DNA of 64,000 nucleotides from Prolixibacteraceae bacterium (GTDB lineage: Bacteria; Bacteroidota; Bacteroidia; Bacteroidales; Prolixibacteraceae), in assembly GCA_019459525.1 (NCBI GenBank), contig JAIBEY010000066.1, positions 164,031 through 228,030 of the forward strand. Reading direction: 5' to 3'. Position numbers and translations under genes: made by a program. The notes under the pieces were generated by a model. The model ran no database searches. It was not told where the DNA came from and was given only the letters and a program-made list of their open reading frames with translations. Positions 26,304 through 32,021 of the stretch are shown here, one piece after another; the first letter of the stretch is position 1, and each line of letters starts with the position of its first letter.

Positions 26304-27425
26304 TTACAGCGTTCCTTTTGTTGTTGGCAGTTCGAAATTAAAAACATCTTTCCGGATAGCCATTTTAATTGCTCTTGCCAAGGCTTTAAAAATGCCTTCA
26401 ATTTTATGGTGCTCATTCGTTCCTTCGGCCTTAATATTCAGGTTCGAAAGCGAAGTATCGGAAAACGATTTGAAAAAATGAAAGAACATCTCGGTTGGCA
26501 TATCACCAACTTTTTCACGTAGAAAATCAGCCTTCCAGACAATCCACGGACGACCGCCAAAATCGATAGCTACCTGGGCTAAACAATCATCCATCGGCAG
26601 GCAATAGCCATATCGTTCCACGCCACGTTTGTCGCCCAAAGCAAGCCTGAAAGCTTCACCCAGAGCCAAACCAGTATCCTCAATCGTGTGGTGTTCATCC
26701 ACATTCAAATCGCCATCAACCTGTATGGTCAGATTTACTCCTGAATGACGGGCAATCTGGTCGAGCATGTGATCGAAAAATCCAAGTCCGGTATTGATAT
26801 TTCCTTTTCCGGTTCCATCCAGATTCAATTCAACCCTGATTTTGGTTTCCTTGGTGTTGCGAACAACGGTGCCCGTGCGATCAGGAGAAGCAACTTTTGC
26901 ATATATTTCGTCCCAATCGTTGGTAATCAAAGCACAAAATTCGGCCAATCCTTTCTCCTGAAGTTCGTTTTTCAACGAGCCATCGTTAATCAGTATCCCT
27001 TTTGAACCAAGGTTTTTAGCCAGTTGAATATCAGTCAGCCGGTCGCCAATTACGAAGCTATTGCTCAAATCGTAACTGCCATCCATGTATTTGCCCAGCA
27101 TCCCGGTACCTGGTTTTCGGTTTGGCGAATTGTCGTGAGGGAAATGCCGGTCGATAAATATATCATCAAAAACAACTCCTTCTTTTGCAAAGGCATTCAG
27201 AACTTTGTTGTGTACCGGCCAAAATGTTTCCTCCGGGAATCTGTCAGTACCCAGTCCATCCTGATTGGTTACCATCACCAATTCGTACGACAGGTTTTTA
27301 GCAATAAAATGCATGTTCCTGAAAACCTTCGGAAGATATTCCAACTTTTCGAGCGAATCAATTTGCTCATCTTCGGTTTCAAAAATCAGAGTTCCGTCGC
27401 GGTCGATAAATAATGCTTTCTTCAT
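26304..27425 (-). CDS. hisB: Bifunctional histidinol-phosphatase / imidazoleglycerol-phosphate dehydratase
   Basis: This fused enzyme performs two late steps of histidine synthesis. Residues ~1-165 are a HAD-type phosphatase (FIDRDGTLI nucleophile motif, [19 protein letters not shown]). Residues ~175-373 are IGP dehydratase with two Mn-binding repeats ([10 protein letters not shown] and NEHHKIEG), plus GLGFFDHML. The ATG at 27425 is used because the extra 19 upstream codons fall in a palindromic repeat. An ACCACAG element lies on each side of the gene. Confidence 0.95.
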
Positions 27426-27438
27426 AAAAAACTTTTTT

Positions 27439-27516
27439 ACCACAGAGAACGCTGAGAAAAAAGAGTTAAAAATTACCATCACTGTGACCTCTGTGAAAAC
27501 TCATTTTCTCTGTGGT
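27439..27516. repeat. Gene-less ACCACAG...CTGTGGT palindrome between hisC and hisB
   Basis: ACCACAGAG at 27439-27447 is the exact inverse of 27508-27516. Inner sequences also show partial complementarity (CAGAG/CTCTG, TGAGAAAA/TTTTCTC). The 78-base unit fills most of the 110-base gap. It looks like an empty version of the GxxExxY elements. Confidence 0.65.
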
Positions 27517-27535
27517 TAATATTATTTTAAACGTA

Positions 27536-28567
27536 TTATATCAATTCTTTCAGCGCTTTTCTAAGTTTCTTATTCTCTTTTGGCGATCCGATCGTTATTC
27601 GCAGGCAATCATCGCAAAGCGTAATTTTTGAACGGTCGCGAACAATAATTTTTTGTTCGGTCAGATATTCGTAAATACCTCTGGCATCGTTCATTTTCAC
27701 CAAAATAAAATTGGCATCCGACGGATAAACCACCTGCACAAATGGTAATTTGAATAGCTTTTTCACCATTTTACCACGCTCTTCAAGAATCGTGTTCACC
27801 CATTCTTCTTTCTCCTGAATTTTGTCCATCAACATCAATGCCTTCTTCTGTGTCAGAATATTGATGTTGTAAGGATATTTTACCTTGTTGAAAATCCGGA
27901 TAATTTCAGGTTGCGCAAAAGCCATTCCCAAGCGAATACCGGCCATTCCCCAGGCTTTCGAGAATGTCTGCAAAACAATTAAGTTCTCGTATTGATCCAA
28001 TTCAGGCAACAAACTGCTTTCCGGAGCAAAATCAATGTAAGCCTCGTCAACAACAACCAAACCATCAAAATCAGTCAGCAATTTAACTATTTCCGATTTA
28101 TCTAACAGATTGGCTGTCGGATTGTTGGGTGAACACACGAAGATAACTTTAGTGTATAAGTTGGTGGCATCGAGTAATTTTTGAGCACTGAACCCGAAAT
28201 TCTCGTCAAGTTTTACTTTGCGAACCTCTACATTATTGATGTCGGCAGCCACCTGATACATGCCGTAAGTTGGGTCGATCGAAACCATGTTGTCAACTCC
28301 CGGCTCACAAAATGCACGAAAAATAATGTCGATAGGCTCATCACTTCCGTTGCCCAGGAAAATTTTTTCAGGAGCAATATTTTTGATGGCCGCAATTTTC
28401 TCTTTTACCGCCCACTGTAGCGGATCGGGATAGCGATTATAGGGTTTATTGAACGGGTTTTCGTTGGCATCCAAATAAACGTCAGCCTCGCCCGAGAATT
28501 CGTCGCGAGCTGAAGAATAGGGTTTCAATGCCTTTATGTTGTTGCGAAGTAATTTGTCTATGTTCAT
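27536..28567 (-). CDS. hisC: Histidinol-phosphate aminotransferase HisC
   Basis: HisC is a PLP enzyme converting imidazole-acetol phosphate to histidinol phosphate. The 343-residue fold type I aminotransferase shows NRYPDP near the start, [10 protein letters not shown], the CSPNNPTAN motif and VVDEAYIDF with the PLP-contacting Asp. [14 protein letters not shown] carries the Schiff-base Lys. It starts at ATG 28567 ([10 protein letters not shown]); the longer frame upstream enters a repeat. Confidence 0.95.
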
Positions 28568-28581
28568 ATTTATATTTTTGA

Positions 28582-28644
28582 ACCACATAGATACATAGAA
28601 CACATTAAAAATTTAAAACTATGTGACCTATGTGCCTCTGTGGT
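28582..28644. repeat. Gene-less ACCACA palindrome between hisD and hisC
   Basis: ACCACATAG (28582-28590) faces CTCTGTGGT (28636-28644), and inner CACATTAAAAA and TTTTAAACTATGTG segments are complementary. At 63 bases it is a shorter, diverged member of the same palindrome family. Confidence 0.6.
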
Positions 28645-28649
28645 TGTTA

Positions 28650-29942
28650 TTATTTTTTCAATTCTTTCAACCGCAGTGTCACTGCATTTTTATGTCCGTC
28701 CAATTCTTCGGCGGCAGCCATTGTTTCAATAACAGGTCCGAGGTTTTTCATCCCTTCCGGAGTTATTTCCTGAAAAGTAATTTTTTTGATGAAACTATCG
28801 ATATTCACTCCGCTGAACGAACGCGCCCAGCCATTGGTTGGCAAAGTATGATTGGTTCCCGAAGCATAATCGCCAGCACTTTCAGGAGTATAGTTTCCGA
28901 GAAAAACGGATCCCGCATTGGTTATCAATTCGGCCACCTGAAGATAGTTTTCCATCGCAATAATCAAATGTTCGGGTGCATATCCATTAATCAGGTCAAT
29001 CATTTCCTGAACATTTTCCAGCACAACGGCCTGACTGTTTGCCAAAGCTTTTTCGGCAATGGCTTTGCGTGGCAGATCGTTAAGCTGCTTTGCCAATTCC
29101 TGATCAACTTTTTCAACCAATGATTTGTCGTTCGTCACCAATACAACCTGACTGTCGGGTCCGTGTTCTGCCTGAGAAAGCAGATCTGCAGCAATGAAAG
29201 CCGGGCTGGCGGTTGAATCGGCCATAACAGCAACTTCCGATGGGCCAGCAGGCATATCAATAGCCACATCACCCCGACTGATTATCTGTTTGGCTGCCAT
29301 CACGTACTGGTTTCCGGGACCAAATATTTTATCCACTTTCGGAACCACATCCACGCCATATGCCATTGCTCCAATCGCCTGAATGCCTCCGAGTTTGAAT
29401 ATCTTCGTCACGCCAACCAGCTGTGCAGCAAACAAAATCGCCGGATGTATTTTGCTTTCCTTATTGGGTGGTGTACACAACACAATTTCTTTACAACCTG
29501 CAATGTTCGCCGGAATAGCCAACATCAGAACCGTTGAAAATAACGGAGCCGAACCTCCCGGAACATACAATCCAACGTTCTCGATGGCCACCGGTTTTTG
29601 CCAGCAGATTACCCCGGGAGTCGTTTCTATTTTTTTAATTGCCGGAACCTGCGATTCGTGAAATTTCTGAATGTTGTGAGCAGCCACCCTTATCGCATTT
29701 TTCAGTGAATCATCGACTAAAGAAATAGCTTCAGCAATTTCCTGCTCCTGAACGGCAAAATTCTGAATAAAAGCGCCATCAAATTTTTCGGTGTATTTGC
29801 GGATAGCGTGAACACCACCATTTTTAATCTCAGCAAGAATAGCCTGAACCTGACCTTCGAGTTCGGCCACACTAAATAATGGACGCTGAAGCAGTTCTGC
29901 CCATGTTTCTTTTGGGGGATTGATATATGTCTTCATACTCAT
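28650..29942 (-). CDS. hisD: Histidinol dehydrogenase HisD
   Basis: HisD oxidises histidinol to histidine in two NAD-dependent, Zn-bound steps. The 430-residue protein has the landmarks VGLYVPGGSAPL, DKIFGPGNQYVMAAKQ, MPAGPSEVAV, LSQAEHGPDS (zinc ligands) and NHTLPTNGWAR. The ATG at 29942 overlaps the stop of the upstream transporter by four bases (ATGA), indicating coupling. A second ATG two codons later is also possible. Confidence 0.96.
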   Translation of the reverse strand: MSMKTYINPPKETWAELLQRPLFSVAELEGQVQAILAEIKNGGVHAIRKYTEKFDGAFIQNFAVQEQEIAEAISLVDDSLKNAIRVAAHNIQKFHESQVPAIKKIETTPGVICWQKPVAIENVGLYVPGGSAPLFSTVLMLAIPANIAGCKEIVLCTPPNKESKIHPAILFAAQLVGVTKIFKLGGIQAIGAMAYGVDVVPKVDKIFGPGNQYVMAAKQIISRGDVAIDMPAGPSEVAVMADSTASPAFIAADLLSQAEHGPDSQVVLVTNDKSLVEKVDQELAKQLNDLPRKAIAEKALANSQAVVLENVQEMIDLINGYAPEHLIIAMENYLQVAELITNAGSVFLGNYTPESAGDYASGTNHTLPTNGWARSFSGVNIDSFIKKITFQEITPEGMKNLGPVIETMAAAEELDGHKNAVTLRLKELKK

Positions 29943-30829
29943 TGAGTTTTCAATGGTTTAATTCTCAGAGCTAAAAAATTACCTGCAAAAAGTAAAAGGA
30001 TACCTATTGCGGCAGCCAGACCCCATTGGTAATTTTCGAAAAACGAAGAAATTACCAATGCAATAACCGGAGCAACCAACGTTGTATATCCGGCACGATC
30101 GGGGCCAATATCGCCAACAAGTTTCAAATATAAAGTAAAGGCAACGATTGAGCCCAATATTGAAAGGTAAAGAAGCGAAGCGATGTATGGGAATGTAGCT
30201 TCGAACGAAAAACTTTTCCCGGAAAGTGGAACCATTAACATCATTGCTAAACTACCATAAGTCATACTAAAGGCATTAGTCTGAATAACAGGTAGTTTTC
30301 GTGTTTGGTTGTATTTAGAAAGAATATTTCCTAACGATGCCAAAACAATGGAGCCGAAACAGAAAAGTAATGCCTGATACCCAATAGCTATTTGTTCCGA
30401 ACTCTGCAATTCATTGCTAAAAATAAGTAATGTTCCTCCAATCCCGAGCACTGCCCCTGCCATCACTTCTTTTCTGATTTTGCCCTTCAGCAACAAATAG
30501 CTAAAAAAGATATTGGTGAAAATTGAAAATGAAAAAATGATGGCGACAACGCCACTGGCTAAATCTTCTTCAGCCAAATAAACGAGCCAGTAATTAAATC
30601 CAAACAAAATCATTCCCTGTAGCATCATCAAAAGGTGTTCACGAAGAGTGTATTTTAAGTTCAGTCTCCGGATGGCACTGAAAGCCATTAACAGCAAACC
30701 CGCTATCAGGAAACGATAAACTACCGAGACCAACGGATCGACCTGCCCCAATTGAAATTTGATGGCAAACCAGGTAGAACCCCAAATAAAACAAGGGATA
30801 ATAAAGTATAAGAATTGTCTGGCCTTCAT
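29939..30829 (-). CDS. EamA/DMT-family transporter in the his operon
   Basis: This 296-residue protein shows ten hydrophobic segments in two EamA repeats, opening with FLYFIIPCFIWGSTWFAIKF and holding a second half from about residue 150. EamA proteins export or import amino acids and metabolites. The substrate is unknown. Its location between hisG and hisD, with a 4-base overlap into hisD and an 8-base gap from hisG, suggests co-regulation with histidine supply. Histidine export or uptake is a fair inference, not shown. Confidence 0.88.
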   Translation of the reverse strand: MKARQFLYFIIPCFIWGSTWFAIKFQLGQVDPLVSVVYRFLIAGLLLMAFSAIRRLNLKYTLREHLLMMLQGMILFGFNYWLVYLAEEDLASGVVAIIFSFSIFTNIFFSYLLLKGKIRKEVMAGAVLGIGGTLLIFSNELQSSEQIAIGYQALLFCFGSIVLASLGNILSKYNQTRKLPVIQTNAFSMTYGSLAMMLMVPLSGKSFSFEATFPYIASLLYLSILGSIVAFTLYLKLVGDIGPDRAGYTTLVAPVIALVISSFFENYQWGLAAAIGILLLFAGNFLALRIKPLKTQ

Positions 30830-30837
30830 TCTGTTGA

Positions 30838-31698
30838 TTATAGAATCATTTTTTCAATCGGAATAACGAGTATTCCTGTAGCTCCGGCAGCCTTCAGTTT
30901 GCCGATTATTTCCCAGAAGTCTTTTTCCTCAATCACCGAGTGAACTGAGCTCCAGCCCTCTTCTGCCAGCGGCATTATGGTCGGACTTTTCATCCCTGGC
31001 AAATACGATTCGATCTCGGCCAACTTTTCATTCGGTGCGTTCAGCAAAATATATTTTTTCTTTTCGGCCCTTTGCACCGATTCCATCCTGAAAATTAATT
31101 CGTCCAGAATGGCTTTCTTCACGTCAGAAAGATTGGGATTGGCTACCAAAACAGCCTCCGACTTCACAACCACTTCCACCTCTTTTAAGCGGTTGCTTAC
31201 CAAAGTACTTCCTGAACTGACAATATCAAAAATAGCATCGGCAAGGCCAATTCCGGGAGCAATCTCCACTGAACCGGTAATCACATGAATTTCTGCTGTG
31301 ATGTTATTTTTCCTGAAATAATCTTTCAGAATTTCCGGATAGGACGTAGCAATCTTTTTCCCGTTGAAGTATTCGATTCCGGAATACTCGTCATCTTTTG
31401 GGATTGCCAAAGAAAGCCGACACTTACTGAATCCAAGGCGCTTGGCAACAACAACATTTTCCTTCTTTTCGAGCATTTCGTTTTCGCCAACAATTCCTAT
31501 GTCGGCAACACCCATGGCTACTGCCTGAGGAATATCATCATCGCGCAGAAAAAGCGCTTCGAGCGGAAAGTTTGATGCTGTCGAAATCAGTTTTCGAGTA
31601 CTCAGTGGGAGTTTTATTCCAGCTTCATCTATCAGTTTTAACGAATCTTCGTTTAATCTGCCTTTGGTTTGAACGGCAATTTTTAAAAGTCCTTCCAT
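30838..31698 (-). CDS. hisG: ATP phosphoribosyltransferase HisG (long form)
   Basis: HisG joins ATP and PRPP in the first, feedback-controlled step of histidine synthesis. The 286-residue protein is the long form. It has the bilobal catalytic core (IAVQTKGRLNEDS, DIGIVGENEM, ADAIFDIVSSGSTL phosphoribosyl site). A C-terminal ACT-like regulatory domain occupies about residues 210-286, where histidine binds for inhibition. HisZ is therefore not needed. It is the first structural gene after the His-rich leader and attenuator. Confidence 0.96.
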   Translation of the reverse strand: MEGLLKIAVQTKGRLNEDSLKLIDEAGIKLPLSTRKLISTASNFPLEALFLRDDDIPQAVAMGVADIGIVGENEMLEKKENVVVAKRLGFSKCRLSLAIPKDDEYSGIEYFNGKKIATSYPEILKDYFRKNNITAEIHVITGSVEIAPGIGLADAIFDIVSSGSTLVSNRLKEVEVVVKSEAVLVANPNLSDVKKAILDELIFRMESVQRAEKKKYILLNAPNEKLAEIESYLPGMKSPTIMPLAEEGWSSVHSVIEEKDFWEIIGKLKAAGATGILVIPIEKMIL

Positions 31699-31717: not shown

Positions 31718-31748
31718 AAAAAAGGCCTACCATTGCGGTAAGCCTTCT
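31718..31748 (-). terminator. his attenuator terminator hairpin
   Basis: On the minus strand AAGGCTTACC (31746-31737) pairs with GGTAGGCCTT (31731-31722) around a 5-base loop, with one G-T pair. A T6 tract follows, and the hairpin ends 19 bases before hisG. The same GGTAGGC string occurs at the end of the leader peptide (31797-31791) and can compete for the first arm. Confidence 0.85.
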
Positions 31749-31785
31749 TTATTGGGTTAATATCTTTTTAAAAACATCAAAACAA

Positions 31786-31848
31786 TTACTGCCTACCTTC
31801 GGATAGAATCACATGATGATGGCCGTAATGTTTAATTGTGTTGTGCAT
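31786..31848 (-). CDS. hisL: Histidine-rich his operon leader peptide
   Basis: A 20-codon reading frame encodes MHNTIKHYGHHHVILSEGRQ and ends in TAA. Five of the first twelve residues are His, three in a row. It starts 11 or so bases after the predicted transcription start. The stop codon and the three codons before it overlap the segment GGTAGGC that can form an antiterminator. This is the layout of a ribosome-mediated attenuator. Ribosomes stalled at the His run during histidine shortage leave GGTAGGC free to block the terminator. It is too short for standard gene finders. Confidence 0.82.
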   Translation of the reverse strand: MHNTIKHYGHHHVILSEGRQ

Positions 31849-31865
31849 ATCTGTATTATGAGTTG

Positions 31866-31896
31866 CAAGTATAGTTATAAATTGAAATCAAAACAA
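31866..31896 (-). promoter_or_regulatory. Promoter of the his operon
   Basis: On the minus strand TTG (31896-31894) is followed after 20 bases by TATACTTG (31873-31866), seven of eight positions of the TTG/TAnnTTTG pattern. Initiation about 7 bases downstream would start the leader transcript just before hisL. Confidence 0.5.
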
Positions 31897-32021
31897 GTTA
31901 TCTAATTACAGTTTTTAGAATTTTACGTTTTATTAATATTAAAAACCAGTATTTATCTGTAAAGGAATGACGTAAAAATACAATAATCAGGTTCGCTATT
32001 TATAAATTTAAAAGGAATGTG

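Follow-up and report, generated by a model that had tools for sequence, protein, structure and literature searches.

A probable ribosome-mediated histidine attenuator before hisG in Bacteroidota, with conserved competing arms and a pause-like TG at fixed spacing

In the Prolixibacteraceae genome considered here, the hisG leader contains a 20-codon peptide frame with five His codons and is most probably a transcription attenuator of the ribosome-mediated kind, these codons being predicted to sense histidyl-tRNA; we assign this reading a probability of roughly 0.88 on the basis of comparative and folding evidence. The mechanism is strongly supported by both lines of evidence, and the function is predicted from them. 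The window, i.e., the whole stretch of DNA that was analysed, comprises 64,000 nucleotides; all coordinates refer to it, and the features are listed below together with their basis.

31866–31896, minus strand: predicted Bacteroidota promoter, with TTG in the −33 region (31896–31894), a 20-nt spacer and TATACTTG in the −7 region (31873–31866); sequence.
31786–31848, minus strand: leader frame MHNTIKHYGHHHVILSEGRQ, 20 codons plus TAA, with His at codons 2, 7, 10, 11 and 12; sequence, and conserved His-rich frames before hisG.
31821–31828, minus strand: outer arm 1, TTACGGCC, from the last base of His7 to the first base of His10, pairing with GGCAGTAA (31793–31786); pair counts.
31802–31806, minus strand: inner arm 1′, CTATC, in codons Leu15–Ser16, pairing with GGTAG of arm 2 into a candidate pause hairpin; RNAalifold, 32 sequences.
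31791–31797, minus strand: arm 2, GGTAGGC, common to the 1:2 and 2:3 pairings; pair counts.
31778–31779, minus strand: pause-like TG (T 31779, G 31778), 11 nt after the end of arm 2 and outside the coding frame; offset count.
31757–31780, minus strand: AT-rich apical hairpin that would nest inside the 2:3 antiterminator, with the TG in its stem; z of −2.9 (L001).
31718–31750, minus strand: intrinsic terminator AAAGAAGGCTTACC-GCAAT-GGTAGGCCTTTTTT; fold energy, covariation, relatives.
31737–31743, minus strand: arm 3, GCTTACC, part of the first terminator arm and also the partner of arm 2; pair counts.
31725–31731, minus strand: arm 4, GGTAGGC, followed by C at 31724 and T6 at 31723–31718; sequence.
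30838–31698, minus strand: hisG, the first controlled gene; Pfam HisG (PF01634) and HisG_C (PF08029).
26304–30829, minus strand: rest of the likely operon, i.e., an EamA-type transporter gene, hisD, hisC and hisB; Pfam, gene order, spacing.

Read on the minus strand, the region upstream of hisG thus presents promoter, leader frame, arm 2, arm 3, arm 4, T6 and hisG, whose ATG at 31698 lies 19 nt past T6. A first-pass annotation of this DNA had placed there a TTG-20-TATACTTG promoter (31896–31866), a 20-codon frame with five His codons (ATG 31848 to TAA 31786), a terminator with T6 ending 19 bases before hisG, and a GGTAGGC at 31797–31791 identical to the second terminator arm and able to pair with the first, GCTTACC. 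Upon base-by-base reading, each of its coordinates upstream of hisG matches, the terminator is also borne out by its fold (−18.2 kcal/mol), and the gene behind the leader is a true HisG (PF01634, PF08029). The first-pass annotation had missed the outer and inner partners of arm 2 and the pause-like TG. The last base of arm 2 is the first base of the final sense codon (CAG).

The EamA-type transporter gene (window 29939–30829) sits between hisG and hisD. Such a gene is present at 12 of the 139 hisG loci of more than 2 kb (ten from the own genus, plus L021 and L141), with hisD within reach in 126. The transporter is possibly controlled by the same attenuator and is a candidate histidine transporter.

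An attenuator is expected to have, ahead of its biosynthetic operon, a small reading frame with multiple codons for the amino acid under control; such a frame is found here as well as in relatives. hisG was recovered in 51 of 61 genomes in a search of relatives, in 52 of 119 in a class search and in 70 of 80 in a phylum search; the own genome is included in each genome set, and the phylum set overlaps the class set. G008 and G027, with partial or weak hisG matches, were left out of the 51 relatives, as were twenty HisG matches of the phylum search (29–32% identical) from the locus set, while L019 (a run of N) and L050 (100 bases) were excluded from the counts over 137 and 217 loci; the leader of L019 was readable separately despite its run of N. 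Defining a leader as an ATG frame of 7–60 codons with at least three His in 8 codons, no more than 300 nt upstream of hisG, we find one at 19/19 own-genus, 28/32 family and order, 46/53 class and 10/33 deeper-phylum loci. For these four groups, dinucleotide shuffles expect 0.25, 0.7, 1.3 and 0.5 His leaders, and the opposite strand yields 0, 0, 3 and 0. The His codons are, hence, conserved in the hisG upstream regions of relatives, a comparison that the first-pass annotation had proposed as a check. Enrichment is specific: at least four His in 8 codons (ATG frame, within 300 nt) occur at 89 of 137 hisG loci, and the next amino acid, Ile, reaches this at 7 of 137.

Among the 23 deeper-phylum loci that miss an ATG leader, nine have GTG-started His leaders (L115, L120, L122–L124, L126–L129), and ten of the remaining 14 have a HisG that is only 29–33% identical. 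Counting ATG and GTG starts, a His-rich leader is present at 171 of the 217 sampled hisG loci, with none at 46; these loci are unthinned and include near-duplicates, e.g., L023 and L140. Named genome records were assessed for the best 80 of at least 586 confirmed loci, counting ATG, GTG and TTG starts within 350 nt. A leader is found in 56 of these best 80, including records of Bacteroides, Phocaeicola, Parabacteroides, Algoriphagus, Pontibacter, Empedobacter and Flavobacterium, and in none of the other 24, including all four Paludibacter, both Tannerella and several rumen Bacteroidaceae; the titles of a few metagenome-assembled records conflict with the phylum (Chlorobiota, Akkermansia).

Of 149 leaders, 120 have a TAnnnTTG box in the 60 nt before them, versus 11 of 149 control windows, and 90 of these 120 also have TTG in the −33 region. 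In its accessible part, PMC7366714 gives TAnnTTTG at −7 and TTTG near −33 as the promoter consensus of B. fragilis; for F. johnsoniae, it describes the −7 box as confirmed and the −33 box as not found. Since a −7-like box precedes leaders so much more often than control windows, we expect transcription to begin ahead of the leader and not downstream of 31786; the first-pass annotation had regarded a start there as fatal to its reading. Upstream of the promoter, AATATTAATAAAACGTAAA at window positions 31922–31940 is kept exactly or nearly so in most own-genus loci, and may act as an upstream promoter element or bind a regulator.

The competing arms were assessed in 32 aligned family sequences that had been selected by kinship and presence of a leader, not by their arms. 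Terminator and antiterminator with a common arm, as required for attenuation, emerge from the pair counts and duplex tests. The 2:3 pairing is retained in all of 224 cells (100%), with one double change, a number reached by 17 of 500 shuffles; for 3:4, the paired share is 99.7% of 317 cells, and 0 of 500 shuffles reach its five doubly changed pairs. Sliding controls attain at most 55.8% for 2:3 and 67.2% for 3:4. Loss of the competing arms in relatives, which would have counted against the first-pass annotation, is thus not what the alignment presents. The outer 1:2 pairing (TTACGGCC/GGCAGTAA) is retained in 85.5% of 256 cells as compared with at most 48.0% in slid versions, and its three doubly changed pairs (e.g., TATGGCC/GGCTATA in L023) are reached by 3 of 500 shuffles; at this locus, its fifth pair is a G–A mismatch. 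The inner pairing, CTATC/GGTAG, is present in 97.4% of 190 cells; its covariation is no better than in shuffles (105/500), the columns varying too little. The consensus fold of the whole 32-sequence alignment consists of the terminator and the inner hairpin, and not of the 2:3 or the outer pairing.

Duplex tests were extended to 138 leader loci, family included, whose terminator is at least as stable as −8 kcal/mol and lies within 70 nt of the leader stop codon. Against shuffles, the 2:3 duplex has p ≤ 0.05 in 83/138 and the outer 1:2 duplex in 51/138, the latter being weaker outside the family. In flavobacteria, the arms (CTCAAGCGA facing CCGTTTGA) are unrelated in sequence and similar in position. 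The arms would also account for the conserved non-His codons of the leader, with the outer arm explaining the Tyr-Gly that interrupts the His codons, the inner hairpin Leu-Ser, and arm 2 Gly-Arg.

The fold of the terminator stretch has an energy of −18.2 kcal/mol and a z of −5.25, and 0 of 200 shuffles are equally good; for the whole leader, z is −3.11 and 1 of 200 shuffles folds equally well. A simple terminator scan reported no terminator at this locus; in our reading, the stem extends across the A-rich/T6 stretch, so that nothing is left that the scan would define as a T tail. Among the 171 leader loci, 146 have a terminator before hisG, with a median of −17.55 kcal/mol and seven weaker than −8. 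The 25 loci without a detectable intrinsic terminator, including Algoriphagus, Pontibacter and a deeper group, would suit a leader that acts as a sensor on hisG translation or via Rho instead of via an intrinsic terminator; given the U-run terminators at the 146 other loci and at this one, where it ends 19 nt before hisG, we consider such a sensor very improbable here.

Masked folding with a 31-nt ribosome footprint was applied to RNA ending at arm 3. Depending on the codon in the A-site, the probability of 2:3 is 0.92–0.97 (codons 2–5), 1.00 (6–13), 0.85 (14), 0.26 (15) and 0.00 (16 to stop). Ribosome position—on the regulatory codons or at the stop—hence changes the available pairing in this RNA, and folding with and without masking, as proposed in the first-pass annotation, behaves as a switch. 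Across the 138 loci, the median upstream pairing of arm 3 is 7.2 nt when the ribosome occupies the His run versus 2.7 nt at the stop; the increase is at least 2 nt in 115 loci, and the other 23 of the 138, one of which goes in the opposite direction, are without a switch of at least 2 nt. Because any stall further upstream frees more RNA, a shuffled-spacer control was run on 117 of the 138 loci (own genus reduced to one; L140, L185 and L060 dropped), with a switch in 90/117 real loci versus 15–28/117 in six shuffles.

At equilibrium, the full-length leader adopts the terminator (3:4 1.00) at every ribosome position, and ribosome-free RNA up to arm 3 adopts 2:3 (0.96); according to these models, the switch must, therefore, be kinetic rather than an equilibrium one. 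The first-pass annotation had a stalled ribosome favour the antiterminator and a ribosome at the stop codon the terminator, which is what masked folding gives for RNA ending at arm 3, but not for the complete leader at equilibrium. In ribosome-free RNA exposed to nt 63–104, the outer 1:2 pairing has a probability of 0.87–0.97. Tested as protectors, both the outer and the inner pairing are predicted to form ahead of the emergence of arm 3, after which equilibrium favours 2:3 (0.96). Because RNA exposed to arm 3 prefers 2:3, a terminating ribosome-free ground state would need a kinetically trapped 1:2. Stalls at His7 or His10 leave the inner hairpin on arm 2 until arm 3 emerges (0.94 and 0.96 at nt 104) and would, thus, need strand exchange; in the folding model, only stalls at His11–13 leave arm 2 clearly free.

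That the full leader always folds into the terminator at equilibrium is also what a leaky, unregulated terminator would give, with the leader translated, the ribosome not setting the terminator, and the identity of arms 2 and 4 a by-product of local duplication. We regard this as highly unlikely in view of the specific His enrichment (89/137 loci versus 7/137 for the next amino acid), the 2:3 pairing in 224/224 cells, the survival of 3:4 through double changes, the drop of the masked-folding difference from 90/117 to 15–28/117 in shuffles, and the flavobacterial arm 2 of unrelated sequence (CTCAAGCGA facing CCGTTTGA).

From the observed frame, the arms with their conservation and pairing counts, and the folding switch under masking, we infer leader translation, polymerase pausing, and termination with its histidine response. 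On the attenuator reading, RNA polymerase would start at about 31860, transcribe the leader and pause at T31779, at which point the inner hairpin CTATC/GGTAG would have just emerged from the polymerase. A ribosome would begin the leader and, at His11–12, melt the inner hairpin, releasing the polymerase. When histidyl-tRNA is scarce, the ribosome on the His codons would cover the outer arm and, from His11, start to cover the inner arm, leaving arm 2 free to pair with emerging arm 3; the terminator would not form in time, and hisG-(EamA)-hisD-hisC-hisB would be transcribed. When histidine is plentiful, the ribosome would reach the stop codon and cover arm 2, arms 3 and 4 would pair, and transcription would end 19 nt before hisG.

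The proposed pause is suggested by a TG located exactly 11 nt past arm 2 in 30 of 56 thinned loci versus 6.2 expected, with at most 15 loci at any offset in 200 shuffles. These 56 derive from 77 loci with the arm 2 pattern, the own genus being reduced to one and L140, L185 and L067 dropped. At offset 10 or 11, TG is present in 38 loci, 33 of which read TGT and 25 of which have G at −11 (T being −1), and is absent from 18 of the 56. As the position of the leader stop codon ranges from 10 nt upstream to 27 nt downstream of the start of arm 2, the fixed offset of TG is not codon conservation. With the RNA 3′ end at T31779, RNA to about nt 58 would be outside the polymerase, given its exit length. 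In RNA exposed to nt 58, the inner hairpin has a probability of 0.90 when ribosome-free, and of 0.97, 0.27 and 0.00 with the ribosome at His10, His11 and His12, respectively; from the end of its stem to the TG, there are 12–13 nt. Over the 56 loci, local hairpins ending on arm 2 have a mean of −5.43 kcal/mol versus −3.91 in shuffles, with p ≤ 0.05 in nine, p ≤ 0.2 in 29 and p ≥ 0.8 in none.

These data may point to an ancestral Bacteroidota his attenuator with a built-in pause, in which the inner arm-2 hairpin, the 11 nt and T–G would halt the polymerase until a ribosome arrives at the His run, a reading which we hold tentatively, at a little under even odds. It is also conceivable, albeit somewhat doubtful, that the conserved TG(T) past arm 2 is not a polymerase pause signal but forms the 5′ strand of the apical antiterminator hairpin: segments lying between arms 2 and 3 have a slight folding advantage over shuffles (56 loci, mean z −0.78; below −1 in 24/56, above +1 in 2/56), and at this locus the TG falls in the predicted apical stem. 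However, 30/56 loci share exactly the same distance to arm 2, predicted apical stems vary in length and position among loci, and G occurs 10 bases before T in 25 of the 38 loci with TG.

Some leader loci look different. In Algoriphagus/Pontibacter-type loci (L054, L055, L189, L191, L194, L195, L200, L198, L212, L217), the leader ends in HHFHHSS*, and the leader stop codon lies within a hairpin, ATTCCTC/GAGGAAT or a shortened form. These loci have no convincing intrinsic terminator (L212 has a weak hairpin of −7.1 kcal/mol, and in the others none was detected), and a different kind of switch is possible. A deeper Bacteroidota group (L119, L120, L122–L124, L126–L129) has long, mostly GTG-started leaders, most with five to six His per 8 codons; about half have a hairpin inside the His codons, e.g., GATGTCC...GGACATC, and no U-run terminator was detected before hisG.

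Leaders for other amino acids are also seen in the own genome. Two tandem Trp-rich leaders, MIQNTNTIWLPWWGLSANNRK and then MNTIWWWHSNFSQYRGRK, precede trpE (G000 contig C109, L225), each followed, as judged by eye, by a terminator-like hairpin. Of 17 own-genus trpE loci (L225–L241), 14 have both Trp frames, one only the second (L240) and two neither, with just 304–375 nt upstream available in these two; L242, from another family, has two Trp-rich frames, too. Before ilvD (G000 contig C101, L223), an Ile/Val/Leu-rich leader, MKNISIISLVIVSVVVLLRAE, is followed by a terminator-like hairpin with T8 and is likely part of a branched-chain attenuator. For pheA of the own genome, no frame with at least three Phe is listed in the 520 nt upstream.

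The locus resembles hisL of E. coli and Salmonella in its His-codon leader, alternative hairpins and U-run terminator before hisG. Unlike hisL, whose leader has seven His in a row, it has five His codons, three of them in a row, one 7-nt arm 2 common to the alternative pairings, and a predicted 5′ UTR of only about 12 nt. A predicted hairpin, a spacer and Y−1G+1 before the switch resemble those of hisL as described in the accessible part of PMC9291695, where the E. coli pause has a 5-bp stem, an 8-nt loop, 10 nt to the pause, and G−10Y−1G+1; the likeness is close, not exact, given that the inner stem here is 12–13 nt from T instead of 10, and G is at −11 instead of −10.

This locus yielded no match at the gathering score or at E ≤ 10 to the Rfam his leader family (RF00514), to the T-box model, or to Bacteroid-trp (RF01692), the latter also having none at three trp loci scanned at E ≤ 0.1. 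Sub-threshold Rfam matches look like chance, e.g., Phe_leader at 24.3 bits versus a gathering score of 55. The Bacteroid-trp motif, as its name says, belongs to trp genes. In the accessible text of PMC2864571, RF01692 is a candidate structured RNA of Bacteroidetes, which it has in common with the hisG leader; the amino acid differs.

The nearest published account of a Bacteroidota his attenuator that we found is a map of Flavobacterium psychrophilum RNA (PMC9723704), the accessible part of which reports a structured 5′ element upstream of hisG in Flavobacteriaceae—the same gene in the same phylum—and strong clues for leader-peptide attenuation before amino acid biosynthesis operons. In that part, the element is described without arms or leader sequence, and its distribution extends only to other Flavobacteriaceae genera. 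Lopatovskaya et al. 2010 (cited in the accessible part of PMC4833913) may list Bacteroidetes. Outside Proteobacteria, histidine leader attenuators with a His-run leader, terminator and antiterminator like those seen here are described for the Bacillus cereus group, Peptostreptococcaceae and Erysipelotrichaceae in the accessible sections of PMC9413887, and a his leader in bacilli also in those of PMC2965389. These Firmicutes leaders occur in few lineages and are described as acquired or separately evolved (PMC9413887, same sections), whereas the leader reported here runs through most of the phylum sample. A review of Bacteroidota his genes (PMC8305728) mentions, in its accessible portion, attenuation for S. 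enterica and E. coli and no leader. It was fair of the first-pass annotation to call such leaders best known from Proteobacteria, but they are common in Bacteroidota (171/217 loci) and have been partly reported there (PMC9723704, accessible part). In the literature covered, mostly non-subscription and supplements aside, there is no account of the phylum-wide spread, the shared-arm layout or the pause-like signal. The kind of attenuator is already known, its mechanism is classical, and the flavobacterial case is probably not new; the interesting part is the wide conservation together with the fixed pause-like spacing. As no existing family matches this locus, the alignments could serve as the seed of an Rfam entry.

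For attenuation by a leader peptide, ribosome and polymerase must be synchronised over some 100 nt. As for the coupling of transcription and translation outside E. coli, B. subtilis is described as uncoupled in the available text of PMC7819879, and Bacteroidota are described as being without classical Shine-Dalgarno sequences in that of PMC7366714. A leader at 171 of 217 loci, combined with a fixed pause-like signal, would make coupling testable in this phylum. If the reading of a built-in pause is true, phylum-wide retention of the attenuator would imply that Bacteroidota keep ribosome and polymerase in step.
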